Part shown: in pieces, positions 1,401 to 45,814 of the stretch | How positions within the stretch are numbered: the stretch's first letter is position 1 | Layout: each line of letters begins with the position of its first letter | Assembly (NCBI GenBank): GCA_903901045.1 | Contig: CAIUPP010000123.1 | Coordinates: forward strand, 1-64,000 | DNA length: 64,000 bases | Direction of reading: 5' to 3' | Origin: an uncultured Planctomycetota bacterium | GTDB taxonomy: Bacteria > Planctomycetota > Brocadiia > CAIUPP01 | Notes under the pieces: model-generated | Told to the model about the DNA's origin: nothing | The model's database searches: none | What the model saw: only the letters and a program-made list of their open reading frames with translations | Position numbers and translations under genes: made by a program

Positions 1401-1519
1401 CGTGGACTCTCCAGTCCACGCGCCCGTGTAGCGCGGGCTTTAGCCCGCGTCCGTGGCCGCGCTCCGTGTAGCGCGGGCTTCAGCCCGCGTCCGTAGTGGG
1501 GGCGCCGCATGCTGCGCCC
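1400..1519. repeat. Cluster of four short palindromes between yggS and proC
   Basis: Four small inverted repeats are packed head to tail: 1400-1421 (9-bp arms, 4-base loop), 1425-1454 and 1465-1494 (two nearly identical 30-bp units built on GCGGGCTT/AGCCCGC), and 1500-1519 (a 20-bp near-palindrome). The last family recurs at 8086-8105, 34892-34911, 34946-34965 and 35956-35975. They may form hairpins in the transcript between the two genes. Confidence 0.85.
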
Positions 1520-8105: not shown

Positions 8106-8294
8106 TCGGCTCAGGCAGCGCCGGTCATGCAGGCGCGAGATCGTTAACCAGCCCCTCCGCTTCGCCCAGCGCCCCGCCACCCCTTCGATCATATTGCGCG
8201 CCAGCCGGGCAAGGAATATGATAGAGGAATGTCCGGCGCCCGCCATTCGCGGCTCACTTGGACCGGACAGCATAACTTATTGTGAGCGCTCTAG

Positions 8295-9497
8295 ATGGAA
8301 CGCATTGAGATACTCGATTGGCTGCGCGAGGAAGAGCCGGCCCGGCGCGAATTGCTTTACCGCCGGGCCGACGAGACCCGCCGCTGCTCCGTCGGCGACG
8401 AGGTGCACCTGCGCGGCCTCCTCGAAATCTCCAACTACTGCGTCCGCTCCTGCGCCTATTGCGGCCTGAACGCCGGTCACAGCGCCCTGACGCGCTACCG
8501 GATGAGCGCCGCCGAGATCATGGAGTGCGTGCAGGACATCCTCGCCTTCGGCTACGGCACCGTCGTCATGCAATCCGGCGAAGATTACGGCATCGAGGCG
8601 GGCTGGATGGCCGACGTCGTGCGCCGCATCAAATCCGAAACGCCGCTGGCCGTGACACTCAGCCTGGGCGAGCGCCCCGAGGGAGAGCTGATCGCCTGGA
8701 AGCGCGCTGGGGCGGACCGGTACCTTCTGCGCTTTGAAACCTCCGACGCCGCGCTCTATGATAGGATTCATCCCCCGCTGGCCGGGCGCGTCTCGGATCG
8801 CATTGCGATGCTCAAGCGGCTCCGCCAGATCGGTTACGAAATCGGCAGCGGCGTGATGATCGGCATTCCCGGCCAGACGTTCGAGAGCCTGGCCAACGAC
8901 CTGGAACTCTTCCGCGCGTTGGACCTGGACATGATCGGCGTCGGGCCATACCTGCCCCATCCGGCCACGCCGCTGGGGAAAATGGAGACCCGAAAGGCCC
9001 CGGAGCAAATGGGGTCCGCAGAGAAAATGGGGACTGAGGAAATGGGGACTGAGAAAATGAGGATTGAGAAGATGGGGGCTGAGCAGATGGCGACCGAGGA
9101 AATGGGGTCTGGCTCCTTTTCCCGTCCGTCTGGGAAAAGGTGCCTGACCCCATTTCCCCCGCCCGCGGGGACGCAAGTCCCCAACAGCGAGGAAATGACG
9201 TACAAAGTCGTGGCCCTTGCGCGATTGCTCTGTCCGCAGGCGAACATCCCGGCCACCACCGCGCTGGCCACGCTGAACACCGCGCAGGGGCGCGAACTCG
9301 GCCTCTCGCGCGGCGCGAACGTCGTCATGCCGAACGTGACCCCGGCGGTTTATCGCCGGTTGTATGAAATCTATCCCGGCAAAGCGTGCATCAGCGAAAC
9401 CGCCGCCGCCTGCCACGGTTGCATGGCCGGACGAATCCGTGCCATTGGCCGCAGCGTCGGCGTCGGGCCGGGAGCAAGGAAGAAAATGCGGGATTAG
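8295..9497 (+). CDS. hydE: [FeFe] hydrogenase maturase HydE, with an in-frame repeat insertion
   Basis: HydE is a radical-SAM enzyme that acts with HydG and HydF to build the H-cluster of [FeFe] hydrogenases. The SAM-cluster cysteines are C49, C53 and C56 in NYCVRSCAYCGLN, followed by GYGTVVMQSGEDYG, GIPGQTFESLANDL, IGVGPYLPHPATPLG and NIPATTALATLN. At 400 residues it is about 50 longer than usual. The excess lies between PATPLG and MTYKVVALARLL (bases about 8980-9190): six 5-residue repeats (E-x-M-G-T type) and then sequence coded by a dispersed palindrome. The frame stays open. hydG follows after about 105 bases. Confidence 0.95.
   Translation: MERIEILDWLREEEPARRELLYRRADETRRCSVGDEVHLRGLLEISNYCVRSCAYCGLNAGHSALTRYRMSAAEIMECVQDILAFGYGTVVMQSGEDYGIEAGWMADVVRRIKSETPLAVTLSLGERPEGELIAWKRAGADRYLLRFETSDAALYDRIHPPLAGRVSDRIAMLKRLRQIGYEIGSGVMIGIPGQTFESLANDLELFRALDLDMIGVGPYLPHPATPLGKMETRKAPEQMGSAEKMGTEEMGTEKMRIEKMGAEQMATEEMGSGSFSRPSGKRCLTPFPPPAGTQVPNSEEMTYKVVALARLLCPQANIPATTALATLNTAQGRELGLSRGANVVMPNVTPAVYRRLYEIYPGKACISETAAACHGCMAGRIRAIGRSVGVGPGARKKMRD
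9021..9110 (+). repeat. Six tandem 15-bp repeats inside hydE
   Basis: Six consecutive 15-bp units of the type GAGAAAATGGGGACT run from 9021 to 9110, each differing by 1-5 bases, and code for 5-residue repeats such as EKMGT and EEMGT. The last unit overlaps the left arm of the palindrome at 9098-9157, so the array probably grew from the palindrome's own end sequence. Confidence 0.9.
9098..9157. repeat. 60-bp palindrome inside hydE, 'GGGGTCAGGC' family
   Basis: Two 26-base arms (9098-9123 and 9132-9157) match except at two positions, around an 8-base loop. The arm core GGTGCCTGACCCC also occurs at 36588-36612 as part of an intergenic palindrome. Such elements are common in some environmental genomes and look like the REP-type sequences mobilised by RAYT transposases; no RAYT gene is in the window. 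Confidence 0.9.
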
Positions 9498-9602
9498 AAG
9501 TGCGGAGTGAAGAGCGCAACATGCGCTGGGAGCGGGAAACATGCGAACGCGCCTCTCGTTGCCGCCGTTCGTTCTGCATTCAACTGCCGTTGGAGGTGAA
9601 CG

Positions 9603-11027
9603 ATGTCTCCGTTAGCTGAAATGACGTTGAGCGAAAACGCCCTGGACTTCATCGACGACGCCCGGCTGATCGGCCTGCTTGCCGGCCCTGCTCCGGACGC
9701 CGCGGCCGTGCGCGACGTGGTCGCCAAGAGCCTGGAGAAACATCCCCTGGGCCTGGAGGAGACCGCGCTGCTTCTGAAAGCCGACGCCCCGGAGCAGGTG
9801 GAAATGATCTTCGACGCCGCGCGCGAATTGAAGCGGCGCGTCTACGGCAACCGCATCGTCCTGTTCGCCCCGCTTTACGTGGGCAACCAGTGCGTGAACG
9901 ACTGCGCCTATTGCGGCTTCCGCCGCTCCAACCGCGCGCAGGTGCGCCGCACGCTCGAAACTCCCGAACTGATCCACCAGGTCGAAGCGCTGGAAAAAGT
10001 CGGCCACAAGCGGCTCATCCTGGTCTTCGGCGAGCACGCCGCCTACGACGCCGCTTTCATCTCCGCCTGCGTTCGCTCCGTCTACGGCGTCCGCGTCGGC
10101 CACGGCGAAATCCGCCGCGTCAACATCAATGCCGCGCCGCAGGATGACGAAGGGTACCGCGCCGTCAAGGCGGCCGGGATCGGCACGTACCAGATATTCC
10201 AGGAGACGTATCACCACGAGACCTACCGGCGCTATCATCCCGCCGGGACGCGCAAGGGGGACTTCCTCTGGCGGCTCGACGGCCTCAGCCGCGCGATGGA
10301 GGCCGGCTGCGACGACGTCGGCATCGGCGCGCTCTTCGGCTTGTACGACTGGCGCTTCGAGGCGCTCGGCCTCGTCGCCCACGCCCTGCAACTTCAGGAG
10401 CGCTACCACTGCGGCCCGCACACCATCAGCTTCCCGCGCATGCGCCCGGCCTCGGGCGTCAAGTTCGACGAGAAATACTTCGTCAACGACCGCGATTTCA
10501 AGCGTCTCATCGCCATTCTGCGCCTCTCCGTTCCGTACACCGGGTTGATCCTCACCGCCCGCGAGAACGCGCAACTCCGCCGCGAGGCCATGGGCTTCGG
10601 CGTCTCGCAGATCGACGCCGGCAGCCGCATCGAGATCGGCGGCTACACCGAGGCGGGCGACGCGCAGGTGATGGAGCGCGAGCAGTTCCAACTCGGCGAC
10701 GTGCGGCCGCTCGACACCGTCATCCGCGAACTGCTGGCCGACGGCTACATCCCGAGCTTCTGCACCTCCTGCTACCGGCTCGGGCGCACCGGCGAGCACT
10801 TCATGGAGTTCGCCATCCCCGGCTTCATCAAGCGCTTCTGCACCCCCAACGCGCTGGCCACGCTTCAGGAGTACCTGACCGATTACGCCTCGCCCGAGAC
10901 GCGCGCCGCCGGCGAGAAGCTCCTCGCCGCCGAACTGGCGAAGATCGATGAAGGCTCCCTCAAGAGCGATCTGGCCGGGCGCTTGGAACGCATCCGCACC
11001 ACCGAGGAACGGGACCTGTATTTTTGA
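9603..11027 (+). CDS. hydG: [FeFe] hydrogenase maturase HydG
   Basis: HydG is a radical-SAM tyrosine lyase that releases CO and cyanide ligands for the H-cluster. The 474-residue protein has the N-terminal SAM cluster C97-C101-C104 (NQCVNDCAYCGFRR) and the C-terminal auxiliary cluster as CX2CX22C (C387, C390, C413), exactly the HydG spacing. Other signatures are GVGQIDAGSR-like GVSQIDAGSRIEIGGY and PRMRPASG. The ATG at 9603 follows GGAGGTGA. Its last bases overlap the possible upstream start of the aspartase gene. Length is typical. Confidence 0.97.
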   Translation: MSPLAEMTLSENALDFIDDARLIGLLAGPAPDAAAVRDVVAKSLEKHPLGLEETALLLKADAPEQVEMIFDAARELKRRVYGNRIVLFAPLYVGNQCVNDCAYCGFRRSNRAQVRRTLETPELIHQVEALEKVGHKRLILVFGEHAAYDAAFISACVRSVYGVRVGHGEIRRVNINAAPQDDEGYRAVKAAGIGTYQIFQETYHHETYRRYHPAGTRKGDFLWRLDGLSRAMEAGCDDVGIGALFGLYDWRFEALGLVAHALQLQERYHCGPHTISFPRMRPASGVKFDEKYFVNDRDFKRLIAILRLSVPYTGLILTARENAQLRREAMGFGVSQIDAGSRIEIGGYTEAGDAQVMEREQFQLGDVRPLDTVIRELLADGYIPSFCTSCYRLGRTGEHFMEFAIPGFIKRFCTPNALATLQEYLTDYASPETRAAGEKLLAAELAKIDEGSLKSDLAGRLERIRTTEERDLYF

Positions 11028-11089
11028 AACGGATGATTGCTGAATACGGTTCAGCAATAGCTGCTATCCGCCTTCACGAGGATGCTGAA

Positions 11090-12550
11090 ATGTCTTACCG
11101 CAGCGAAAAAGACCTTCTCGGCTCTCGCGACGTCCCCGCGGACGCGCTGCACGGCATCCATACCGAGCGCGCGCTGGAAAACTTCGCGCTCTCAGGTCGT
11201 GGCGTCCGCCCCGGCCTCATCCATGCCTTCGGCGCGGTGAAGCTGGCCTGCGCCCGCGTGAATCACGAACTCGGCTGGTGGGAGAATGAGAAGTTCCGCG
11301 CCATCGAAGGGGCCTGCGCGGAAATGGTGGAGGGGATGCTCGACCGTCACATCGTCGTGGACGCGCTTCAGGGAGGCGCGGGCACCTCCCTGAACATGAA
11401 CGTCAACGAGGTGCTCGCCAACCGCGCGCTGCAACTGCTCGGCCGTCCGCTGGGAGAGTACGCGACCATCGGCCCGCTGGACGACATCAACCTGCACCAG
11501 TCCACCAACGACACCTACCCGACCGCGCTGAAGGTCGCCGCCATCTATTCGCTGCGGGCGCTCGAACGCGAGGTGATCGCGCTGCTGGAGGAGTTCCAGC
11601 GCAAGGAGAAGGAGTTCGCGCACGTCGTCAAGGTCGGCCGCACGCAGATGCAGGACGCCGTCCTGACCACGCTGGGGCGCGAGATGGGGGCGTACGCCGA
11701 AGCGTTCGCGCGCGACCGCTGGCGTCTCTACAAGTGCGAGGAGCGCCTGCGCGTTGTCAACCTCGGCGGCACCGCCATCGGCACGGGGCTGCTCGCGCCG
11801 CGGCAATTCATCTTCAAGGCCGTCGAGCAACTCCGCGACATCACCGGCCTCGGCCTCGCGCGCGCCGAAAACCTCGTCGAGGCGACGCAGAACGCCGACG
11901 TATTCGTCGAAGTCAGCGGCATCCTCAAGGCGCACGCCGTCAACCTGCTCAAGATTTCCGGCGACTTCCGCTTCCTCTCCAGCGGGCCGGATGCCGGAAT
12001 CGGCGAACTCATCATCCCTGCGCGGCAGGCCGGCTCCTCCATCATGCCCGGTAAAGTGAACCCCGTGATCCCGGAGGCCGTCTCTCAGGCCGCCATGAAC
12101 GTCATCGGCAACGACGCCGTCATCACGCAAGCCTGCGCGATGGGGAACCTGGAACTCAACCCCTTCCTGCCCGTCGTCGCCGACGCGCTGCTGACGAACC
12201 TCGACCTGCTGCGCAACTCCTGCAGCGCATTCCGCCGCCTCTGCGTCGAAGGATGCCGCGCCGACGAGGCCCGATGCCGCGCGCACGTCGAAGGGGCGAC
12301 CGCGACGCTCACCTCGCTGATGGAGAAGCTGACGCATGAGCAGGCCGCCGCCGTCGCCGAGCAGGCGCGCGCGGAGAAGAAGAGCATTCGCCAGGTCGTC
12401 ATCGAGCGCGGGCTGCTCACCGGCGAGGAATTCGACCAACTCTCCTCGCCGCAAAGCGTCATGCGCCTGGGCTATCCGTTGTCTGAACGGCCTTCTCAAC
12501 CACGGAGGCACGGAGACGCGGAGAACGGCGTTCCCGAGCAACTGCAATGA
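11090..12550 (+). CDS. aspA: Aspartate ammonia-lyase within the hyd cluster
   Basis: The 486-residue protein belongs to the aspartase/fumarase superfamily: TSLNMNVNEVLANRA, HQSTNDTYPTALK, VGRTQMQDA, NLGGTAIGTG and the signature GSSIMPGKVNPVIPE. Aspartase converts aspartate to fumarate and ammonia. aspA lying between hydG and hydF is known from other genomes, and a role in supplying nitrogen for H-cluster assembly is a reasonable inference. I chose the ATG at 11090 (GAGG 8 bases upstream) over an ATG at 11024. The last ~20 residues (after GYPLSE) are coded by the palindromic element at 12499-12701 and are probably not part of the original protein. Confidence 0.92.
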   Translation: MSYRSEKDLLGSRDVPADALHGIHTERALENFALSGRGVRPGLIHAFGAVKLACARVNHELGWWENEKFRAIEGACAEMVEGMLDRHIVVDALQGGAGTSLNMNVNEVLANRALQLLGRPLGEYATIGPLDDINLHQSTNDTYPTALKVAAIYSLRALEREVIALLEEFQRKEKEFAHVVKVGRTQMQDAVLTTLGREMGAYAEAFARDRWRLYKCEERLRVVNLGGTAIGTGLLAPRQFIFKAVEQLRDITGLGLARAENLVEATQNADVFVEVSGILKAHAVNLLKISGDFRFLSSGPDAGIGELIIPARQAGSSIMPGKVNPVIPEAVSQAAMNVIGNDAVITQACAMGNLELNPFLPVVADALLTNLDLLRNSCSAFRRLCVEGCRADEARCRAHVEGATATLTSLMEKLTHEQAAAVAEQARAEKKSIRQVVIERGLLTGEEFDQLSSPQSVMRLGYPLSERPSQPRRHGDAENGVPEQLQ

Positions 12551-12707: not shown

Positions 12708-13940
12708 ATGATGATGGGCACACCCAAAAGCTTCCGCCTGCACATCGGCATCTTCGGACGCCGCAACGTCGGCAAATCCTCGCTGCTCAACGCCATGACC
12801 CGGCAGAACGTCTCCATCGTCTCCGAAATCGCCGGAACCACCACCGACCCCGTCGAAAAACCGATGGAACTGCTGCCCATCGGCCCCGTGCTCTTCATCG
12901 ACACCGCGGGGATCGACGACGTGGGCGCGCTCGGCGAACTGCGCGTGCAACGCACCCGCAAAATATTCGACCGCACCGACCTGGGGCTCGTCGTCACCGA
13001 AGCCGGGGCGTGGGGGGAGTTCGAGGAGGGCATTCTGCAGGAACTGCGCTCGCGGAAAATCCCCGCCGTGGTCATCTTCAACAAAACCGACCTGGCCGAA
13101 CCGGCGAAGGAGTTGTCCGACCGTCTCAAAGCGGAGAAGGTCCCCACGGTCCGCACCGTCGCCTCGAAAGGGGGGGGGATACTGGAGTTGCGCGAGGCGC
13201 TCGTGCGCGCCGCCCCCGAGGAGTTCATCAACGCGCCCACCATCCTGGGCGACCTCGTTCCCGCCGGCGAATTGGTGGTGCTGGTCGTGCCGATTGACCT
13301 GGAAGCGCCCAAGGGGCGGCTCATCCTGCCGCAGGTGAGCGCCATCCGCGACTTGCTGGACATCGACAGCTACTGCATCGTCGTCAAGGAGCGCGAACTG
13401 CGCGACGCGCTGGACCGGCTCAAGCGGCCCCCCGTGCTCGTCGTCACCGACAGCCAGGGCTTCCTGAAGGTCGCCGGAGACACGCCCAGGGAAATCCCGC
13501 TCACCTCCTTCAGCATCCTCTTCGCGCGGCACAAAGGGGACCTGGACGAATTTGTGCGCGGCGCAATGGCAATCGAGAAGCTTCAACCCGGCGACCGCAT
13601 CCTCATCGCCGAGGCCTGCGCGCACCATCCCATCGGCGACGACATCGGGCGCGTCAAGATTCCGCGCTGGCTGATGCAGTACGTGGGGGGCAAGCTGGAG
13701 GTGGAGACGACGCAGGGACATGACTTCCCCGACGACCTGGGGCGCTTCAAGCTCGTCGTGCACTGCGGCGGCTGCATGTGGAACCGGCGGGAGATGCTCA
13801 CGCGCATCCTGCGCTGCCGCGAGGCGGGGGTGCCCATCGCCAACTACGGCATGACCATCGCCTACTCGCTGGGAATCTTCGAACGCGCGCTAAGTCCCTT
13901 CCCCGGCGCGCTGGAGACCTATCGCAGACTGCGTGCGTAG
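12708..13940 (+). CDS. hydF: [FeFe] hydrogenase maturation GTPase and scaffold HydF
   Basis: HydF is the scaffold that assembles the diiron subcluster and delivers it to the hydrogenase. The 410-residue protein has an N-terminal GTPase domain (P-loop GRRNVGKSS, switch EIAGTTTDPV, DTAGIDD, NKTD), a dimerisation domain, and a C-terminal [4Fe-4S] domain with C304-x-H306 and H352-C353-x-x-C356, the expected CxH...HCxxC arrangement. The ATG at 12708 is preceded by GAGAAGAG, which comes from the end of a dispersed repeat. The gene converges on the deacetylase gene. Confidence 0.97.
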   Translation: MMMGTPKSFRLHIGIFGRRNVGKSSLLNAMTRQNVSIVSEIAGTTTDPVEKPMELLPIGPVLFIDTAGIDDVGALGELRVQRTRKIFDRTDLGLVVTEAGAWGEFEEGILQELRSRKIPAVVIFNKTDLAEPAKELSDRLKAEKVPTVRTVASKGGGILELREALVRAAPEEFINAPTILGDLVPAGELVVLVVPIDLEAPKGRLILPQVSAIRDLLDIDSYCIVVKERELRDALDRLKRPPVLVVTDSQGFLKVAGDTPREIPLTSFSILFARHKGDLDEFVRGAMAIEKLQPGDRILIAEACAHHPIGDDIGRVKIPRWLMQYVGGKLEVETTQGHDFPDDLGRFKLVVHCGGCMWNRREMLTRILRCREAGVPIANYGMTIAYSLGIFERALSPFPGALETYRRLRA

Positions 13941-13947
13941 GGGGGAA

Positions 13948-14083
13948 CGGATTCAACGTTCAACGTCCAACTTTCAACGTCCAACGTTCAAGTAACGGCC
14001 ACGCCCTGTGTGTGCGCTTTGTTCGTTGTTCGCTGTTCATTGGATGTTGGAAGTTGAACGTTGGACGTTGAACGTTGAATCCG
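13948..14083. repeat. Inverted repeat cluster of GTTCAACGT units between convergent genes
   Basis: The left arm from 13948 (CGGATTCAACGTTCAACGTC) and the right arm ending at 14083 are complementary over about 40 bases, each arm itself made of tandem 7-10 base units of the CAACGTT type. It fills nearly the whole space between hydF and the deacetylase gene. A second copy lies at 38516-38647. It could act as a two-way terminator, but no T-tract is obvious. Confidence 0.85.
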
Positions 14084-36478: not shown

Positions 36479-36558
36479 GGCTCGGAACAGGGGGCAAGCC
36501 GCTTTTGAGTTTGGAGCAGGGGTCAGAGCGGAAAAGGGGGCGGAAAAGAGGTCAGGGC

Positions 36559-36612
36559 GGAAAAGGGGTCAGGCTGCTTTTCGCGTTCGAAAAGATGCCT
36601 GACCCCCTTTCC
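36559..36612. repeat. 'GGGGTCAGGC' palindrome, intergenic copy
   Basis: Arms 36559-36583 and 36588-36612 match at 22 of 25 positions around a 4-base loop. From 36490 to 36560 there are further partial units (GGGGTCAGAGCGGAAAA and similar) in direct orientation. This is the same family as the element inside hydE at 9098-9157. Confidence 0.87.
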
Positions 36613-38515: not shown

Positions 38516-38647
38516 CGGATTCAACTTTCAACGTTCAGCGCTCAACGTCCAACGAACAGCGAACGACGAACAGACGTCGCGTGCGGGGGGGGCGTTGTCG
38601 TTAGTTGAATGTTGAGCGTTGAACGTTGAAAGTTGAACGTTGAATCC
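38516..38647. repeat. Second GTTCAACGT inverted repeat cluster
   Basis: Left end CGGATTCAACTTTCAACGTTC starts at 38516 (given here without its last base pair partner) and the complement ends with GTTGAATCCG at 38647. It repeats the structure at 13948-14083 and lies directly behind the TM1266-type gene. Confidence 0.83.
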
Positions 38648-43222: not shown

Positions 43223-45814
43223 CTAGTTCTTAATATACACCTTGTAAACCGTTAGGTCCGTACCCGTGATCGTCTTGGCGGAGTCGGTGTAATCCGCGGG
43301 CGTCTCAGAATCGCTTGCACCCAGGATCATGTACCCCGACGGCACGCCGCTCGGGCCAGTCGGACCCGTCGGACCCGTGGGGCCGGCAGGGCCAACGGCG
43401 CCTTGAACGTGCAACGTGGTCACCACGTGACTGGTGTGGGTTGCCCCGGAGTAAACGAAGTGTATCGTCTGATTTGCGGTCGACTTGGCGTACATCTTCA
43501 CAACGATTCGGTCCGTCGTACTCAGCGGAATATCCGACACGAGCACATAGTCCGTGTCATATTCCAGAACGGACGTTGCGTTGATCTCGACGGTGGTGAC
43601 GTTGAATAGCTCGGTCTCAACGCCGCCTGACGTGCGTTTGAAGATGCGATAGACGATTCGACTATCGCCGCCCGTGGATGCGGCATAGTGGTAGCAATGG
43701 AAGTGCCAGATTCCCGATGGGATCTTGTCAGCGCCCGGGTAGCCGGCCACGGTGACGTACGGATCGATGAGCACCTCAGTGCCGTTGGACAGCACAGACA
43801 CCGATTCATCAACCTCTGTGCCAGGAGATGGGGCGACTTCGATCGTCTCATAACCTGCGATATCCGTGCTGGGCGGATGGTGGAAGAACAGCGTTTGTCC
43901 TGTCGATTCGCCCTGCGCACCTGCGGGGCCGGTAGAACCTGTAGCGCCGGTCGCGCCGGTCGGACCAGTGGGGCCTATCGCTCCAGCATCGCCCGTCGCG
44001 CCGGTAGCGCCAGTTGCTCCAGCCACGCCGGTGTCGCCGGTAGCGCCAGTAGCTCCGGTGGGGCCGGCGACGCCTGTGGCACCGGTCGCTCCGGTCGGTC
44101 CGGTAGCGCCTGTTGCGCCATCAGTGCCATTGCTTCCGGCATCCCCTTGCGGGCCGGTCGGGCCTGCGGGGCCCGTGGCGCCGGTAGGTCCGGTCGCGCC
44201 ATCAGTGCCATTGCTTCCGGCGTCCCCTTGCGGGCCGGTGGGGCCAATATCTCCGGTGTTGCCCTTCGGGCCGGTGGGGCCGATATCTCCGGCATCGCCC
44301 TTGTCGCCTTGCGGGCCTGGAACGGTCGAGTCAGCACCGGCCGCGCCGGTAGCTCCGGTCGGGCCAGTGGGACCGATGTCTCCAGCCTCACCCTTGTCGC
44401 CTTGCGGGCCTGGAACAGTCGAGTCAGCGCCGGTCGCGCCGGTAGCTCCGGTCGGGCCAGTGGGACCGATGTCTCCAGCCTCACCCTTGTCGCCTTGCGG
44501 ACCTGGAACAGTCGAGTCAGCGCCGGTCGCGCCGGTAGCCCCAGTCGGTCCGGTAGCACCGGTAGCGCCCGTGGCACCGGCTTCTCCGGTCGCCCCGGTG
44601 GCTCCGGTCGGTCCGGTAGCGCCCGTCGCACCCGTTACGCCAGTTGCGCCCTGCGGGCCCGGAACGGTCGAATCAACACCTGCGGCACCTGTTGCGCCCG
44701 TCGCGCCTTGGGGGCCGGGAACGGTGGAGTCAGCGCCCGTAGCGCCGGTCGCGCCAGTCGGACCGGTTGATCCGGTCGCGCCTGTTGCACCCGTAGCGCC
44801 AGTCGCGCCCTGCGGGCCGGGAACGGTCGAATCAGCGCCGGCAGCGCCGGTCGCTCCAGTAGCCCCGGTAGCACCGGTCACACCTGTAGCGCCCGTAGCG
44901 CCAGTAGCACCCTGCGGGCCAGGAACAGTCGAATCAGCGCCAGTTGCCCCGGTCGCCCCGGTTGCACCCGCAGCGCCGGTTGCCCCGGTCGCCCCGGTAG
45001 CTCCGGTCACACCTGTAGCACCCGTAGCGCCCTGAGGGCCTGGAACGGTCGAGTCAGCGCCAGCCGCGCCAGTCGCACCAGTCGGACCGACTGAGCCAGT
45101 CGCGCCGGTTGCACCCGCAGCGCCGGCAGCGCCGGTCGCACCCGTGGCGCCGGCAACGCCCGTCGATCCCGTAGCCCCGGTCGCGCCGGCAGCGCCGGTA
45201 GCCCCGGCCGGACCGGTCAAGCCGGTCGCCCCGGTATCACCGGTCGCGCCTTTAGCTCCCGTCGGGCCGGCTGCGCCCGTGGCACCGGCAGGACCCGTCG
45301 GACCGACAGCGCCCGTTGCGCCGGTCGGGCCTTGCGGTCCCACCAGCTCATCGGCATGCAGCCCGTCCACCGTATCCGCGTCTCCCGCGGAAGCGGAATA
45401 AATGCACAGCGCCGCCGGCGTCAGGGGACGCCGCGCAGTCAGGATCGTATAGCTTCCCTTGCCCACGGGGCTGCGCACTTCGATCTGTAGCCAGTGGGAG
45501 GTTCCGTCAAACGGCAACCTGTTGAAATCCAGAACCACCGAGAACTCGCCGCTGTCCAGCGTCTGGTTCAGGAATGTCAGAGCAGAGCCCAGTTGATTTC
45601 CGGCGGTGGCGGCATCCCACAATGTGAATTTCAGGTCAGCCGTCTTGCCCAGAGTGCGGTATTCCGTCTTACTGATGGTGTTCGAGTACGGGAACGCCGT
45701 CCCAATCGGCGGACCCAACTTGGGTGCGGTCGCGAACGCCGACCCTGCAATACCGACGACCAGCATTGCAGCGAGAACAAGCTTCGCACAACGACTCGCT
45801 TCCATGCGCCTCAT
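43223..45814 (-). CDS. Secreted collagen-like (G-x-y repeat) protein
   Basis: The 863-residue protein has a signal peptide ([18 protein letters not shown]), an N-terminal domain of about 120 residues ending [16 protein letters not shown] and [14 protein letters not shown], a type seen in planctomycete and verrucomicrobial collagen-like proteins, and then about 480 residues of uninterrupted G-x-y triplets rich in GAT and GPT. Blocks of [16 protein letters not shown] recur at least eight times. A C-terminal beta-rich domain of about 190 residues is split by a second short collagen segment. Such proteins form surface fibres. GGAGG precedes the ATG at 45814; the promoter is at 45999. Confidence 0.92.

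Follow-up and report, generated by a model that had tools for sequence, protein, structure and literature searches.

The window analysed here is a stretch of 64,000 nucleotides (nt) from an uncultured Planctomycetota bacterium (assembly GCA_903901045.1, contig CAIUPP010000123.1, positions 1 to 64,000), and its hydE gene contains an insert, made of a tandem repeat and a palindrome, between the PATPLG and MTYKVV of the encoded HydE. We put at roughly 0.8 the probability that this insert arose as one copy of a palindromic, non-autonomous mobile element, lying in a loop of HydE, whose outer arm was later expanded. The host gene and the parts of the insert are as follows, G003 being a relative whose HydE is 62% identical.

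8295..9497, + strand: hydE, host of the insertion, 400 amino acids (TIGR03956 302.9 bits, cut-off 254.6; Thermotoga maritima HydE structures as best matches; C49, C53 and C56 invariant)
9001..9160, approximate borders, + strand: the whole insert, about 54 extra codons relative to G003 (inverted repeat I2; G003 alignment; native loop APxGxQVPN resumes)
9003..9111, + strand: tandem array of one 18-bp unit (9003-9020) and then six 15-bp units, encoding EKMGT-like pentapeptides
9098..9157, + strand: 60-bp palindrome, arms 9098-9123 and 9132-9157, loop 9124-9131, with a conserved T.T mismatch at 9114/9141

The hydE frame runs without interruption through the whole 400-amino-acid open reading frame (ORF), insert included. 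Tandem Repeats Finder (TRF) detected the 15-bp array at 9021-9111 (6.1 copies, 77% matches, score 105), and the palindrome, with 26-nt arms that are 92% complementary, forms a hairpin of -27.3 kcal/mol (z -11.1), a value that none of 200 shuffles, with a mean of -7.1, equalled. The presence of both structures inside an open hydE frame, reported in an earlier note made from the letters alone, was confirmed in this way; its description as six 15-bp repeats and a 60-bp palindrome needs amendment, as a further 18-bp unit stands directly before the 15-bp array and the array ends in a 15-bp unit that already belongs to the palindrome, as its left arm. The best natural borders of the insert are 9001 and 9161, where the ends form the 16-nt inverted repeat I2 (9001-9016 / 9146-9161). 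The right arm carries GGGGTCAG (9142-9151) and the left arm reads GGGGTCTG; the outer arms GGAAATGG/CCATTTCC are a variant, yet matched on both sides. The peptides of the insert are of the EKMGTEEMGTEK type, and in the HydE alignment the native loop resumes after them as PPAGTQVPN. A 421-amino-acid antisense ORF (window 8277-9542, - strand) spans all of hydE and was taken as a shadow ORF of a GC-rich gene.

Comparison with relatives located the insert. HydE of T. maritima aligns to residues 16-229 and 301-398 and has 7 residues where 71 are found here, and the residues 5-233 and 288-397 correspond in G003 to contiguous DNA, so that about 54 codons are extra in our hydE; the earlier note had given the flanking pieces as adjacent in HydE proteins, with a frame open for about 60 residues between them. 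The same insert was absent from every relative examined. In the AlphaFold2 model the mean predicted local distance difference test score (pLDDT) was 86, and only residues 236-280, between two confident helices, fell below 50; T. maritima HydE entries were the best structural matches (template modelling score 0.91 over the target). Since the low scores are confined to these residues and the remainder is HydE-like, the insert is predicted to form a disordered surface loop in an intact HydE fold.

Several planctomycete-titled HydE proteins, e.g. on Thermoguttaceae-titled contigs, have other long versions of the same loop, and this loop appears to be a permissive site. The HydE of a WOR-3-titled contig (L118) contains two other palindromic inserts built on GGGGACWGTCCC (L118:5510-5564 and L118:5792-5819), one of them in the same loop; the motif occurs 14 times in 11 kb of L118 against 0.2 expected. 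Long loops of both origins could suggest that the loop peptide is adaptive for HydE through interaction or tuning, which we consider highly improbable, because the loop is disordered in the model, the same peptide type is found in unrelated enzymes, and the differences among the hydE units mostly alter the amino acid (9 bases against 2 that do not). Such differences are as expected for a tolerated peptide without constraint, and the sequence encoded by the insert is probably nearly neutral.

The palindrome belongs to a dispersed family, which we assembled from search matches and retrieved stretches of the genome. A 13-base probe with one mismatch allowed matched 53 places in the genome, compared with 4 for the reversed control, and the family comprises 52-55 copies, 52 of which are listed in retrieved DNA. 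The copies follow the consensus GGAAAAGGGGTCAGGCT[G/A/C]CTTTTC-loop-GAAAAG[A/T/G]TGCCTGACCCC(C)TTTTCC; the T.T stem mismatch is kept in 51 of 52, and most stem positions are paired in all 39 copies of the commonest length. A second copy is found in the window, and its kinship with the hydE palindrome, proposed in the earlier note, was upheld.

36559..36612, + strand: intergenic copy, with GGGGTCAG on both arms (36565 and 36597) and extra 5' units at 36530 and 36542

By reading the 52 copies, we found neither a GTAG nor a CGTC tetranucleotide at the foot, which is conserved as GGAAAAGGGG with no common tag outside it. The palindrome had no match in Rfam, and none of the papers searched contains GGTGCCTGACCCC. 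At one locus (L156, G000:C109, 14229-14736) three copies about 200 bp apart form part of a longer segment that is itself repeated, and units of 22-23 bp adjoin on one side. TnpA_REP of E. coli needs a conserved stem mismatch for its hairpin (PMC8266576), and by analogy the family here may have the same requirement.

The strong conservation of stem and mismatch might also indicate that the hairpin is kept for a function in DNA or mRNA, as attenuator, mRNA stabiliser or binding site, and that its place in hydE was selected; such roles are credited to repetitive extragenic palindromic sequences (REPs) in the literature (PMC3733652). We regard this as unlikely, since the copies lie in six unrelated genes, in several frames and both orientations, with no Rfam match, and a family that spread recently would also be expected to have similar copies. 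An assembly or chimera artefact is hardly credible: the assembly is divided into 154 contigs and palindromes can cause chimeras, but the insert is internal to a contig of 128 kb, leaves the frame intact, and has its family at more than 50 separate places.

Besides hydE, at least five genes of the same genome contain in-frame copies. Because 44 of the 55 copies have an ORF spanning them in this GC-rich genome, such an ORF was rejected as sole proof of a gene, and in-gene copies were accepted only with family matches, codon signal or homologues.

Glycerate 2-kinase-like protein: in-frame palindrome with DUF4147 and MOFRL domains on either side, at a gap in the alignment with solved structures
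Chorismate-utilising PabB/TrpE-like enzyme: in-frame palindrome between its two domains, in an unaligned linker
Carboxynorspermidine decarboxylase (NspC): in-frame palindrome at a gap versus solved structures (TIGR01047 438 bits, above cut-off)
DUF5060 protein: in-frame palindrome
Hypothetical protein: in-frame palindrome; across the aligned part, two distant relatives fall short of it by 13 and 20 residues

The encoded peptides differ among these genes, so several frames and both orientations are in use. With a crude codon model, no copy was found whose flanks were clearly coding on one strand but in different frames. It seems that the mobile sequence here adds floppy loops to proteins without breaking them. 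The glycerate kinase (L133, G000:C29) seemingly has a second, unrelated repetitive insert (CEGSLSPSQGSSPRGKPCEGLNEPSQGF) at about residues 82-122.

The genes downstream of hydE in the window are listed below.

9603..11027, + strand: hydG, adjoining hydE (TIGR03955 456.9 bits)
11024..12550, + strand: aspartate ammonia-lyase gene aspA (NF008909 610.9 bits)
12708..13940, + strand: hydF, completing the maturation set (TIGR03918 560.9 bits)

A 54-residue low-complexity insert could have inactivated hydE, the gene being on its way to loss with a frame open by luck; as the palindrome has no stop codon in several frames in any case, the open frame alone is weak evidence. We nevertheless consider decay very unlikely. 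The CxxxCxxC cysteines C49, C53 and C56 and the family-invariant residues are kept, the order hydE-hydG-aspA-hydF makes a complete maturation cluster, three strong [FeFe]-hydrogenase matches are present in the genome, no second HydE was found in the assembly, and every spacing in the hydE array is divisible by three. Judged from sequence and model, the hydE product is apparently a working enzyme. A well-conserved full-length insertion in sister species, or evidence of a pseudogene, would by the earlier note have refuted its proposal; no relative examined carries the insert, and nothing points to a pseudogene. That proposal, a mobile palindrome which entered a loop of an apparently working enzyme and then expanded at one end, agrees well with the empty sites in relatives, the dispersed family, the at least five other in-frame insertions, the disordered loop in an intact predicted fold, and the complete cluster with its [FeFe] hydrogenases.

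The expansion is also seen outside hydE. In 14 copies an extra GGAAAAGG unit precedes the T-side arm within 70 bases, and no copy has the mirrored unit following its other arm (sign test 0.0001, the copies being not fully independent), and one-sided unit growth is thus a trait of the family in this genome. All six unit spacings in hydE are divisible by three (one of 18 and five of 15), compared with 6 of 19 elsewhere, where they range from 7 to 60.

For the source of the element we compared other genomes. The strict pattern occurred only in this genome among 75 of its class, and GGTCTGGCTCC-N-GGTGCCTGACC was found, of 392 genomes in the phylum, in this genome and in 10 genomes of one other, distant family (f31). 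The f31 repeat, GGGGTCAGGCT[A/C]CT, stands upstream of a Y1 transposase gene, 53-55 bp from its start, at 5 of 5 loci examined, and at one locus also at the 3' end (the flank table leaves aside L262, L235 and L234); PF01797 is present in the transposase proteins of L215 and L261. In eight genomes, f31 copies also lie in frame inside the transposase genes, after YVERNPVRAG...DWxxSSA and behind the catalytic core, and related transposases that are 53-55% identical have no such insert. Further f31 copies lie within a RecQ-like helicase and a YndJ-like protein, as judged by Pfam spans. Some in-gene arrays of f31 step by multiples of three (27, 24, 30), once on the other arm, which indicates that the side of growth is not fixed across genomes.

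The genome's own six Y1 genes were considered as mobiliser and rejected, since none of them is flanked by the element and palindromes of other families stand beside them, e.g. GCGGGCTTTAGCCCGC and AAAGTCGGGACACAATACTTTA (L010-L014, G000). The GCGGGCTTCAGCCCGC repeat is also present at window 1419-1494.

Several observations weigh against a mobile element that was moved and then expanded. This assembly, 94% complete, yielded no f31-clade transposase; the best match to an f31 enzyme is 35% identical and has another palindrome at its flanks. At the DNA level, an empty hydE site was found in no sister genome, and in the nearest relative hydE runs into the end of a contig. Inspection by eye, without statistics, showed no target-site duplication in the flanks of the listed copies. 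The 15-bp spacings in hydE are non-independent events.

Taking a mobile palindromic element as the preferred explanation, we might describe its history as follows. The element would be a head-to-head pair of terminal repeats (GGAAAAGGGGTCAGGCT[GAC]CTTTTC), of a type that flanks tyrosine transposases such as those of terminal inverted repeats (TIRYTs) and the similar REP-associated ones (RAYTs). A tyrosine transposase, since lost, unassembled or acting from outside, may have moved single-stranded hairpins to many places, and selection would have removed most genic insertions, leaving those in frame in a surface loop or linker. In-frame survival is possible because the common palindrome form, by reading, is free of stops in most frames. 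Head-to-tail duplication of the outer arm may then have followed in hydE, through hairpin slippage or unequal recombination; its steps would be 15 or 18 bp long because a needed gene would survive only changes of length divisible by three.

We might tentatively speculate further, with some doubt, that a transposase-linked palindrome readable through most frames repeatedly gives rise to new disordered loops of variable length, both in needed enzymes and in the transposase linked to it, and that these loops grow by one-sided duplication of the arm; the palindrome would then be a generator of protein loops whose enzyme can be identified. The best-known coding palindromes are those of Rickettsia, and the moving enzyme is unclear there. 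Here a clade of tyrosine transposases can be connected with the repeat, in-frame copies are present in several enzymes of a single genome, and unit spacing reveals how the frame constrains the growth of the loop. The tolerance and recruitment of mobile DNA by proteins can thereby be tested on ordinary enzymes, HydE and NspC among them.

Two other kinds of repeats were observed in the window. An open frame of collagen-like GATGATG repeats lies at 43900-45350 on the - strand, with 9-, 27- and longer-period tandem structure, and short arrays of 7/14/21-bp units (TTCAACG, GTTGAAC) at 13952-14079 and 38521-38644 face each other.

Among known systems, the terminal inverted repeats (TIRs) with the consensus GGGGWSAS, found at transposases which Di Nocera and colleagues named TIRYTs (PMC3733652), are among the closest; these enzymes are mostly TnpA_Y1 of subclass 2.1 (PMC6006769). 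The GGGGTCAG of our palindrome fits this consensus, the f31 copies flank a Y1 transposase gene at a fixed distance, and the family is repeated and dispersed (52-55 copies), as some TIR families are known to be; a cognate transposase in the same genome, as would be expected for a TIR element, was not found here. In the portions of the two papers available, neither in-frame insertion of TIR families in host or transposase genes nor one-sided arm amplification is described.

REPs that are read in frame have been described before, in Rickettsia, Opitutus and others (PMC3733652). The intragenic GTAG/CGTC REPs, e.g. of Opitutus terrae, are likewise short palindromes in frame inside known proteins, but our palindrome has neither tag, belongs to another repeat family and has a 15-bp tandem array on one side. 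In tnpA_REP genes of subclass 2.4, family repeats also lie in frame inside their own transposase gene; there the REP lies between the HuH and Y motifs, before the tyrosine, (PMC6006769), whereas the f31 insertions follow the Y motif.

The Rickettsia palindromic elements (RPEs) are dispersed palindromes in frame in unrelated conserved genes, and a guanylate kinase with an RPE was active when tested (PMC10969869 and PMC2229807). Our palindrome is likewise in frame in hydE and five further unrelated genes, but it is about 57 bp long against about 150 bp, occurs in another lineage, and has a candidate clade of mobilising enzymes in view. The analogy with Rickettsia drawn in the earlier note therefore holds for behaviour and fails for kinship: the element works like the Rickettsia elements without being one. 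It is best filed with the TIR elements of TIRYT/RAYT-like enzymes, set apart from the RPEs by lineage and length. New relative to these systems is a TIR-type family that has spread to at least six genes within a single genome and is linked to a clade of enzymes, together with the placing of insertions behind the tyrosine in f31 transposases and an expansion on one side that is constrained by the frame.
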